From positions 1 through 42,873 of the IMG/VR virus record IMGVR_UViG_3300046817_000418: a DNA stretch of 42,873 bases; one strand, 5' to 3'. This DNA is from a virus. Numbering within the stretch: the first letter of the stretch is position 1; each line of letters begins with the position of its first letter. The translations under genes were made by a program, and so were the position numbers. Of this stretch, positions 16,123 to 18,940 are shown in pieces. A model generated the notes under the pieces. It ran no database searches. It was given only the letters and a program-made list of their open reading frames with translations, and had not been told where the DNA came from.

Positions 16123-16707
16123 CTATTCGATGTGTTTCCAGGTGCGGCGCTGCCTGACGCAATGAATCAAAGAGGTTGATACGCCATATCGATTCGCGAG
16201 AACCCTGGCGGTCGTTGGAGATGCTCGGATTTCCCGCACGATTGCCTCTGTGATTTTCGCGCCGCGGTTTTTGGTTCCCACCGCGCCGCGCTTGCGATCA
16301 CGGCCTTTATTGATCATATCGTCGACATTCGCTTGCTGGTCACCGCAGAACAAATGCCTGGGATTGACACATGATCTATTATCGCAGTGGTGCAAGATAA
16401 ACTGGCCCGCCGGAATTGGCCCCCGATGCTGTTCATAGGCAAAGCGGTGCGCGAGTATTGATTGTTTAGGCTCTGGATGAAACATCCCGTAGCCAGTGGC
16501 GATTTTCCCGCCCGTCCATTCCCAGCACGCCTTCGGTCCCGAACCTTTCTCGATAAAGGCCTGGAACCGCTCTTCCGCCGGCATTCCCTTATGATAGCGC
16601 CGCTCCTTATGAAGCGGATCGCCATGCCGGCGCCACTGTGTGTAATGCGGCGAGCAGTAGCCGTGCCCTCGCGCGATGCCAGCGCATCCTTCGATCACGC
16701 AAATCAT
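16123..16707 (-). CDS. HNH_3-type homing endonuclease (194 aa)
   Basis: The start at 16707 has an AGGAGGGA Shine-Dalgarno; longer in-frame starts do not. An N-terminal zinc knuckle (CVIEGCAGIARGHGYCSPHY) precedes a WEWTGGKIATGYGMF block. The HNH motif AHRFAYEQHRGPIPAGQFILHHCDNRSCVNPRHLF contains the paired His (HH) and the Asn-containing end. The C-terminus (KITEAIVREIRAS...LANRYGVSTSLIHCVRQRRTW) is a helix-turn-helix for target recognition. It is inserted between the coat gene and the 138-aa head gene on the same strand as the late operon. Confidence 0.88.
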   Translation of the reverse strand: MICVIEGCAGIARGHGYCSPHYTQWRRHGDPLHKERRYHKGMPAEERFQAFIEKGSGPKACWEWTGGKIATGYGMFHPEPKQSILAHRFAYEQHRGPIPAGQFILHHCDNRSCVNPRHLFCGDQQANVDDMINKGRDRKRGAVGTKNRGAKITEAIVREIRASPTTARVLANRYGVSTSLIHCVRQRRTWKHIE

Positions 16708-16784
16708 ACTCCCTCCTGTTTTCCAGACGGGAGTATGATAACTACGCTCGTAGCAAACAGCAAACATTATACGCTAGATGTGTG

Positions 16785-17978
16785 CTAATTTGCAACGAGT
16801 CGGCATGCGAGTTGGGGCCTCAAAGCCACGGCTCCCCACAACACATCAATCCTTATTGGCATGGTGTCATCTGATATGCTATATTGCCTGACTGCCCTCA
16901 TGGAGATACCGTCCTTGACCACCCGTGAGGCCATGTCAACACCGTTGGGCATGACAAGATCGGCTGTGGCGAATGTAAAAGCGTCGGGCATGTAAGCAAG
17001 CGACAAGCCCGTTGCCGTGCTGGCCGTGTTTGCAAACGTCAAGGTTGAAGTGGTGCCGTTCGGACTCGCGCTGACGTTCTGTTGCGGCCCTGACGTGACG
17101 ATGGCCGGCGCGATGCTCATGTTGCCAGCACCGCCCGCGTAGGCGGAGGTCAGCACGAACTGTTGCAGTACCCCGCTGTTGACTTTCGTTTCCGGGTGAA
17201 CCCTGAACACGCCAGCGATGGTAAAGACATCGCCCGCGTTGCCAGCGCCCGTGCCGGTGGTCACGGCGAGCGTGCTGCCCGTCTGGGCGGCCGGGGTGGC
17301 CAGATACGTGGCGGACTCCGCGCCGCGCGTCTGCGTCGTGAAATGCGTTGACTCCGCCCACTCGTAGCCGGCCGCCAAACCCATTACGCCATCGGTGTAT
17401 TGGCGGCTGATCTGCGTGCTCTGCTGGAACAGGCCCTTCAGGCTGTCCACCAGATCGACGTTATCCTGTGTGTTGATCCGCAGTTGCCACTGCTTGGACT
17501 GCGGCGTCAGGTTGTCGAGCAACAGCTTGCGAGACTGCAACACCGTCTTGAACACCTGTGCCGCACCCGCCGTGCCCACCTGGTTCCACACCGCCGGCCA
17601 CATCATGCCGATGCACGTCGCCTCGATCTGGGCCGCGAGAACGGCGATGGCGGGCTCGATGTAGCGCGCCGTGAAATCGTCAATGGACAGCGTCAGTTCG
17701 GCGCTGCTGAACGAGAAATCGACGTGGTACTGGTTGGAGATCGGCAGCGCGACCTGCGTCTCGATGGTGTTTTGCAGCGACAGCGCCGGGGTGGTGCTGA
17801 CGGTGTATTGCACCGGCAGGCGGATACGCAGCGTGCTGCCGATCTTGGCGCCTGAGTTGGCGAACGAATCATCGTACTGACGGTTGATCGATCCGATGAA
17901 GTTACATTTTTGGTGGAGGATCGCGAGCGCCTTGGCCGTGATCATGTTGATTGTGAGCAACGTATTTGTTGCTGGCAT
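16785..17978 (-). CDS. Major coat protein, P22 gp5-like (397 aa)
   Basis: It begins ATNTLLTINMITAKALAILHQ and continues with NRQYDDSFANSGAKIGSTLRIRLPVQY and VDFSFSSAELTLSIDDFTARYIEPA, the N-arm and early core of P22-type HK97-fold coat proteins. A Gly/Thr-rich beta segment at about 225-330 takes the place of the telokin-like inserted domain. P22 coat is 430 aa, so the size fits. It lies directly downstream of the scaffold, as expected. Its Shine-Dalgarno is inside a predicted RNA stem (see 17979-18062). Confidence 0.85.
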   Translation of the reverse strand: MPATNTLLTINMITAKALAILHQKCNFIGSINRQYDDSFANSGAKIGSTLRIRLPVQYTVSTTPALSLQNTIETQVALPISNQYHVDFSFSSAELTLSIDDFTARYIEPAIAVLAAQIEATCIGMMWPAVWNQVGTAGAAQVFKTVLQSRKLLLDNLTPQSKQWQLRINTQDNVDLVDSLKGLFQQSTQISRQYTDGVMGLAAGYEWAESTHFTTQTRGAESATYLATPAAQTGSTLAVTTGTGAGNAGDVFTIAGVFRVHPETKVNSGVLQQFVLTSAYAGGAGNMSIAPAIVTSGPQQNVSASPNGTTSTLTFANTASTATGLSLAYMPDAFTFATADLVMPNGVDMASRVVKDGISMRAVRQYSISDDTMPIRIDVLWGAVALRPQLACRLVAN

Positions 17979-18062
17979 TGTCTGTATCCTTCGTCACGAG
18001 CAGGAAAAAGGATCTCTCACCGGAACGGTTCTTGAGATCTCGATTGCCCGCTGTGACGAAGG
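17979..18062 (-). promoter_or_regulatory. Structured leader of the coat gene with sequestered Shine-Dalgarno
   Basis: CCTTCGTCAC (17988-17997) and GTGACGAAGG (18053-18062) are perfect 10-bp inverted repeats 55 bases apart. On the leftward mRNA the downstream arm contains GAAGG, the only Shine-Dalgarno for the coat ATG, nine bases before it. Paired, it would block ribosome access. The enclosed loop holds a second, terminator-like hairpin (18005-18039). Together they look like a control element for coat synthesis. The structure is read directly; its function is inferred. Confidence 0.6.
18005..18039 (-). terminator. Terminator-like hairpin upstream of coat gene
   Basis: On the leftward strand GATCTC pairs with GAGATC, with an inner ACCG/CGGT stem and a 3-base loop. 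The hairpin is followed by C and then TTTTT, which fits an intrinsic terminator or attenuator lying between scaffold and coat. Confidence 0.55.
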
Positions 18063-18087
18063 GGGTAGACGCAATCACAAACGGATC

Positions 18088-18160
18088 GGCACGACGCAAC
18101 GTCATTACCCGGACGCGGCGGGGGTGGGCACGATGCAACGCCATATACCGGGCGCGGCGG
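18088..18160. repeat. Two imperfect 34-bp direct repeats, 39-bp period
   Basis: Copy 1 begins at 18088 and copy 2 at 18127. They share GGCACGA-GCAACG and ACCGG/CCCGG-CGCGGCGG with a few substitutions, and a short third start (GGCACGGCT) follows near 18165. They occupy most of the remaining scaffold-coat gap. They could be protein or RNA binding sites, or a slipped duplication. Confidence 0.55.
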
Positions 18161-18187
18161 TTTCGGCACGGCTACTCGGTCAGGCGG

Positions 18188-18940
18188 TCAACGCCCCTGC
18201 TTCCGCTGTTCAAGATCCTGCTTCATCCAGCGGTCAACGAGCGTCTGAGCATCGGCGGTGTATTCGTTGAATACTGGCGAGGCGCGTCCCACGACGGGGC
18301 GGATCGGCGCCGGGGCGCGAGTAACAGGGGGCGCGAGGCGGTTGTCACCGTTCGCGGCGGTTCGTGGCGGCACCGGAGCGCCGTCGATCGTGGCGGCGTA
18401 TTTGCCCAATGCCACGGCCCGCGCCCGTTCGGTGCGCAGCCCGGCGATCCGCTCGACCTCCTCTGGATCGGCGGCCAGCGCGGCGGTGACTTTGACGCCA
18501 TCCGGCATCTCGACGAGCAGCGCGGCGAGGCCCGCGTCGGCGCCCATCTTCACCAGGTCGTCGCAACGCTGCTTCCAGTCGGAGAACTGCGCCGAACCCT
18601 GCTGGTGAAATGTTTCGGTTCTGACCTGCGCCTCGACCTCGCCGCGCATCTGCGCCCGCTCACGCATGTGGCGTTGCTCGGGCGTTTCGTCCTGCGGCGC
18701 GACCTGGGCAGCCTGTTGACGGTAAAACTTCAGTTCCCGTTCGCGCTCTTGATCTCGCCGCTCGGCAGCGGTCAGGCGAGCCGAGAGTTCGGCGAAACGG
18801 CGATCGCGTTTGCTTTGGCGTTCCTCTTGTTCCGTCCCGTCGCCACCGTCCGGCGTGGACTCTTGTGGCGGTGTCGGGGGATCTGGAACGGGCGGGATGA
18901 CATCGGGGATCGATGCGGGGTCTGTTGTTGATTCACTCAT
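18188..18940 (-). CDS. Scaffold protein (250 aa)
   Basis: The acidic, Pro-rich N-terminus (PDVIPPVPDPPTPP) leads to a long charged helix (KRDRRFAELSARLTAAERRDQERERELKFYRQQ) and a Gly/Pro linker. It ends with DRWMKQDLEQRKQGR, a basic helix like the coat-binding helix-turn-helix at the P22 scaffold C-terminus. P22 scaffold is 303 aa. It lies between the portal block and the coat gene, as in P22-like order. It guides coat assembly inside the procapsid and is expected to leave before packaging. Confidence 0.78.
   Translation of the reverse strand: MSESTTDPASIPDVIPPVPDPPTPPQESTPDGGDGTEQEERQSKRDRRFAELSARLTAAERRDQERERELKFYRQQAAQVAPQDETPEQRHMRERAQMRGEVEAQVRTETFHQQGSAQFSDWKQRCDDLVKMGADAGLAALLVEMPDGVKVTAALAADPEEVERIAGLRTERARAVALGKYAATIDGAPVPPRTAANGDNRLAPPVTRAPAPIRPVVGRASPVFNEYTADAQTLVDRWMKQDLEQRKQGR

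Follow-up and report, generated by a model that had tools for sequence, protein, structure and literature searches.

Pairing of the Shine-Dalgarno (SD) sequence lowers translation initiation, and the balance between coat and scaffold proteins in tailed phages is an old question. Several described RNAs offer points of comparison for a structured leader at this position. In phage T4, a pseudoknot in the leader of the gene 32 mRNA is the nucleation site for autogenous translational repression by gp32 (PMC535899, PMC3014915). Two or more pseudoknots in tandem characterize the STAXI motif (RF01728), which is known from comparative genomics (PMC2864571). In addition, the flaviviral exoribonuclease-resistant RNAs are compact pseudoknotted viral RNAs, often in tandem, that can block the bacterial 5'-3' nuclease RNase J1 (PMC5760640).

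The window analysed here is a stretch of 42,873 nucleotides (IMG/VR record IMGVR_UViG_3300046817_000418). It is a contig of a P22-like phage in which profile searches place the coat, scaffold and portal genes all on the minus strand (Table 1). The gap between the scaffold and coat genes is 209 nt long, as measured on a locus (L001) that is identical to the window in this region, and it is taken up by a conserved leader spanning about 17979-18171 on the minus strand. We estimate a probability of roughly 60% that this gap encodes a cis-acting structured mRNA leader controlling translation of the coat gene, where it is the regulation of translation that we infer. An RNA switch probably sets the timing and amount of shell protein in this group of uncultured, mostly soil, viruses. 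The conserved RNA sits in exactly the scaffold-coat gap, and its parts are separable.

Table 1. Positions of genes and leader features in the window, with the evidence for each.
Feature	Position	Strand	Evidence
Coat gene, P22 type, served by the leader	16785..17978	-	PF11651 E 3e-24; PHROG 283 major head protein
Scaffolding protein gene, 5' of the leader	18188..18940	-	PHROG 8865 head scaffolding protein, E 5e-14
Portal gene	23358-21178	-	PF16510
CCGUGCC linker motif, 5' end of pseudoknot array	18165..18171	-	Each relative's unit ends with the same motif
H-type pseudoknot unit 1, ACCG-CC-GCGCC-CGGU-AUAU-GGCGU, tail ends GUGCC	18127..18161	-	Pairing; unit type enriched at leader anchors
H-type pseudoknot unit 2, CCCG-CC-GCGUC-CGGG-UAAU-GACGU, tail ends GUGCC	18088..18122	-	Pairing
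Arm 1 (CCGUUUGUGAU), able to pair with arm 2	18074..18084	-	Swap test p 0.00015; U-A to C-G double change in 4/11 sequences
GYGNCU motif, conserved (GCGUCU in the window)	18067..18072	-	Present in leaders listed
P1 5' strand with anti-SD (CCUUCGUCAC)	18053..18062	-	Complementarity, covariation, swap test
Arm 2 (GUCACAGCGG), common to P1 and arm 1 helix	18048..18057	-	Double changes, swap test
Inner hairpin: stem GAUCUC/GAGAUC, internal loop AAGA(A)/(U)GA, stem ACCG/CGGU	18011..18039	-	Covariation
U run 3' of inner hairpin, CTTTTTCCTG = CUUUUUCCUG	18010-18001	-	Seen in sequence; not conserved
P1 3' strand (arm 3) carrying coat SD GAAGG (17988-17992)	17988..17997	-	Complementarity, covariation, accessibility

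Pairing of the coat SD

The initial annotation of this region described perfect 10-bp inverted arms, the downstream one containing the coat ribosome-binding site (RBS). Both statements hold, as the two P1 strands are 100% complementary over 10 nt and the GAAGG carried by arm 3 is the coat SD, 9 nt away from the start codon (ATG, 17978). The 75-nt element has a predicted folding energy of -38.8 kcal/mol. Dinucleotide shuffles reached -19.7 +/- 3.3 kcal/mol, which corresponds to z = -5.8, and none of the 200 shuffles was as stable. The arms and the hairpin they enclose are real and beyond chance. The extent originally given was too narrow, however. The element is only the 3' part of a conserved structure that reaches upstream to about 18171, and the tandem pseudoknots occupying the remainder of the gap had been missed.

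For comparative analysis, coat relatives were drawn from viral contigs and genomes, and the sequence just 5' of each coat start was extracted and de-duplicated. Conservation of the pairing among relatives was a check set out beforehand, and in P22-like relatives down to about 60% coat identity a fold that locks the SD was indeed retained at this position, its pairing preserved by compensatory changes. In the alignment of the window's class (A1, 11 sequences), 93.5% of hairpin cells are paired and changes on both sides occur at 10 of 25 pairs, while the outer stem of the inner hairpin covaries at four of its six pairs. Neither the pairing percentage nor the covariation score was matched by any of 500 shuffles, and the score of 0.28 dropped to 0.11 or less when pairing partners were slid by 1-3 columns. 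Across 41 leader clusters, matched anti-SD and SD strands have a pairing energy of -16.6 kcal/mol versus -11.5 kcal/mol for swapped strands (0 of 20,000 permutations), where, as for every permutation value given here, the relatedness of the sequences means that independence is overstated. In 37 of these 41 clusters, the strand's own partner is better than the median mismatch.

In other words, the SD lies in a conserved, covarying helix, as in SD-sequestering leaders, and the 3' domain of the leader is predicted to hide it. Specifically, the SD core has a median predicted unpaired probability of 0.07 at the coat starts, a set that takes in some sister loci lacking the leader, compared to 0.27 at 110 other SD-led starts from the same contigs with equal GC content (p 3e-5).

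Classes A and C share the internal loop AAGAA/UGA (18029-18033 with 18017-18019, minus strand) despite changes in the stems on either side of it, and the loop looks like a site of protein or tertiary contact. A K-turn was weighed for this loop from the sequence and was dropped, given a bulge of 2 nt rather than 3.

A fixed structure could by itself explain the pairing of the SD. Under such an arrangement the leader would be a passive insulator that uncouples translation of coat from that of scaffold and yields a constant initiation rate, whether low or high, with neither a switch nor a factor. Consistent with this idea, sister clades carry other, unrelated hairpins near the SD. However, an insulator accounts neither for the presence of one to three conserved units that share one topology and are linked by GUGCC nor for a matched arm that competes for the locking strand, and we regard it as quite unlikely.

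A possible competing upstream arm and a U run

Arm 1 is located upstream of the GYGNCU motif and is complementary to the strand that adjoins or overlaps the anti-SD. It usually takes the form of CCG, a bulge, CUG, sometimes a second bulge, and then about four further pairs. Examples of the partners are CCGUUUGUGAU with GUCACAGCGG in the window, CUGCGGC/GUCGCAG in L018, CCG(G)CUG(A)UCGC/GCGACAGCGG in L002 and ACCGCGUCGC/GCGAUGCCGGU in L066. In a swap test on 41 clusters, arms with their own partners form a more stable helix than arms with exchanged partners (Table 1), but in only 26 of these clusters does the matched pair surpass the median mismatch. At the position of the double change seen among the A1 sequences, the rival P1 pair becomes G-U in three sequences of that alignment. 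In class B the arm is nearly invariant, so its helix yields no covariation there, and a comparison of arm 1 energies with those of shuffled linkers gave no signal because GC-rich linkers can pair with almost anything.

In class A, arm 1 and the SD arm contest the same strand. In class B, the two overlap little, and a pseudoknot containing both helices is possible. Since arm 2 can also be paired by arm 1, the leader could form a pseudoknot (arm 1:arm 2 together with anti-SD:SD) or, in the window's class, may alternate between the pairing of arm 1 with arm 2 and that of arm 2 with arm 3.

The arrangement had originally been proposed to be a nested one, able to pass between termination, translation block and an open state. 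Part of this proposal is supported by the upstream arm, whose partner is a strand of the lock and whose helix is more stable when matched than when swapped. The termination state does not stand. As described earlier, the inner hairpin is indeed followed on the coat strand by CUUUUU, and this is the feature that would favour a transcription terminator or attenuator at this site. A stem and U run are present in the window, but the U run is not kept in relatives: four or more consecutive U nucleotides occur in only 6 of 29 leader-bearing lineages, and a consensus terminator scan calls none at this site. Because most leader-bearing relatives lack the U run and the scan made no call, the terminator reading was dropped, and we consider it highly improbable.

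Tandem pseudoknots in the 5' part of the leader

Upstream of the lock, the gap is made up of repeats, each ending in CGUGCC and each fitting an H-type pseudoknot. The layout of a unit comprises S1, a loop of 2-3 nt, S2, 0-2 nt, S1', an A-rich loop of 3-8 nt (56% A), S2', a short tail and GUGCC. Within the window, S1 and S2 of the two units differ from each other by compensatory pairs.

A program that seeks pairing will find it, and so only the enrichment over controls is informative. Using GUGC as an anchor chosen without regard to pairing, a knot was present at 60 of 103 distinct leader anchors. In the remainder of the same contigs, knots occurred at 270 of 4,967 anchors, and among shuffles the rate was 3.6%. 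Sister leaders that do not follow this plan carry a knot at 2 of 18 anchors. At least one unit was detected in 59 of 68 leaders in a larger set, where 37 leaders have one detected unit, 19 have two and three have three. The stems are rewritten between phages and yet remain paired, with 36 forms of S1 and about 18 of S2, the rarer of which might in some cases be chance occurrences at the control rate. Complete rewrites include GUUGC/GCAAC, CGAGC/GCUCG and CGGGG/CCCCG.

The number of units rises from 45 to 60 if G-U pairs are allowed and only to 49 if A-C pairs are allowed instead. This greater tolerance of G-U points to an RNA of the coat strand. It also bears on the idea that the region is an element of the DNA, such as a packaging site, an origin or a site for a repeat-bound regulator, which only resembles a structured RNA. 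The array is repetitive, and a role as single-stranded DNA was once considered for the STAXI knots (PMC2864571). Nevertheless, duplex DNA has no H-type knots, neighbouring repeats differ by compensatory pairs in a manner unlike that of protein-binding repeats, and both position and strand are fixed before the coat start. We therefore view a DNA-level element as very improbable.

Scans of 2.9 million viral contigs with two pseudoknot patterns returned many raw matches that are GC-rich coding sequence; among the matches listed, the units that looked genuine on inspection were confined to coat leaders. The loose pattern CCAAGAACN{4,16}GTGAGG matched too broadly to be informative.

Compact tandem knots immediately 3' of the scaffold stop codon could also serve in mRNA processing or stability. 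In that case the knots would block exonucleases, the long hairpin would be an RNase III-type site, and the scaffold and coat messages would differ in lifetime. Variants of this explanation have the knots behave like viral exoribonuclease-resistant RNAs or guard the 3' end of the scaffold mRNA. The ability of flavivirus knots to stop bacterial RNase J1 (PMC5760640) and the long, only lightly interrupted hairpin of the window are in line with such roles. On the other hand, a stability element does not predict the conserved, covarying SD pairing or the matched arm 1, class B lacks the long regular helix, and the units are two-helix knots rather than the three-way-junction ring of the RNAs cited. 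On balance, we find this explanation unlikely.

Under the preferred reading of the gap as a translational leader, a pyrimidine-rich strand in the 3' part would pair with the SD and so keep the coat RBS closed. Arm 2, which adjoins or overlaps the anti-SD strand, would alternatively pair with arm 1 upstream. The small H-type pseudoknots of the 5' array, which are connected through GUGCC linkers, would most likely dock a trans-acting factor, and the docked factor might then stabilise or open the lock, the direction of its action being a guess. Scaffolding protein or unassembled coat protein would be natural candidates for this factor, again as a guess. A tentative extension of this reading is an autogenous morphogenesis switch, in which one of these proteins binds the knots and toggles the arm 1/anti-SD lock such that procapsid assembly sets the rate of coat translation. 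If true, the head operon of a double-stranded DNA phage would here contain a translational operator built from several pseudoknots.

Distribution and relation to known RNAs

The leader is found in uncultured, mostly soil, bacterial viruses. The same plan is retained down to about 60% coat identity, and the leaders that follow it fall into three or more sequence classes. When run on 67 loci, a covariance model derived from A1 matched coat leaders, together with their palindromic reverse complements, and nothing else. No leader is present in six isolated or named P22-like phages (PAE2, P26218, PBR31, phiAX1, DSL-LC05 and one spring-water genome), which have 30-41% coat identity and scaffold-coat gaps of only 6-140 nt, so the leader is not required for P22-type heads. 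The nearest matches in cellular genomes, alphaproteobacterial contigs with 53-54% coat identity, likewise lack it, and a DNA similarity search of isolated phages gave just a short coat match. These comparisons make the leader a clade trait.

Other leader types are seen in the vicinity of this clade. In seven sister-clade loci with 68-77% coat identity (L050, L062, L452, L455, L466, L472 and L563), the array is absent upstream of coat and a different large hairpin of the GATCAGCACC-GGGCGGCG..CGCCGTTCGG-ACTGATC type is present, in several cases with ACTCC..GGAGT over the SD. Another type, in L071-L077 and L574, has a conserved GACAGCGYCGCGAGRCGCCGTGTCCTTCTCAATGGAG-like block 5' of coat.

Signs of mobile elements also occur near the coat gene. 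An HNH_3 endonuclease ORF lies directly 3' of coat in the window (16123-16767, minus strand) and is likely a homing endonuclease within the head operon. Group I introns (RF00028) are located in or just 5' of the matched coat exon in L046 (4212-4964), L056 (4750-4948), L062 (4205-4956) and L069 (4732-4950). In L046 and L048, the intron sits downstream of the leader and the first coat exon. Three further loci (L029, L244 and L169) have an apparent truncated copy of the 5' part of the coat gene between scaffold and leader, which stops just before the array and is perhaps a leftover of homing or recombination.

No Rfam family matched, either at the gathering cut-off or with the threshold relaxed to E 5 around the leader and to E 2 in eight relatives, and the hits to mir-750 and SorX fell far below the cut-off. 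A separate search with the STAXI model gave no match, and the control genomes were likewise silent. Searches of open-access papers turned up no account of such a leader.

The leader resembles both the T4 gene 32 operator and STAXI and is a member of neither. With the gene 32 operator of T4, T2 and RB69 it shares a compact H-type pseudoknot (about 28 nt there) located 5' of the RBS in a phage mRNA leader. However, that operator has one knot where the coat leader has one to three, and its RBS lies in an unstructured stretch rich in UUAAA/UAAA, whereas the coat SD is locked in a stem and window positions 17979-18087 are structured, GC-rich and free of UUAAA. The gene served also differs, being that of a single-stranded DNA-binding protein in T4 and the coat gene here.

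The tandem repetition typical of STAXI is seen in the two units of the window and in up to three units detected in relatives. In contrast, RF01728 does not match the coat leader, and the frequent UUCG tetraloops of STAXI (PMC2864571) have no counterpart in the loops of the coat-leader units. STAXI lies near genes for single-stranded DNA-binding proteins, topoisomerases, antirestriction proteins and integrases, whereas the genuine coat-leader units inspected precede coat genes, and STAXI is not known to include an SD lock of the kind present here. The flaviviral exoribonuclease-resistant RNAs, in turn, are three-way junctions with a ring fold, whereas the coat-leader units are modelled as two-helix H-type knots. 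With riboswitch-like or protein-controlled SD-sequestering leaders, the coat leader has in common the anti-SD:SD pairing and a possible competing upstream arm, and it differs from them in that the locking strand adjoins a pseudoknot array and lies in a phage head operon. It is best read as a structured translational leader of a known sort but with an unusual array, and this coat leader, with one to three pseudoknots and an SD lock, is a candidate for a new structured-RNA family in Rfam.
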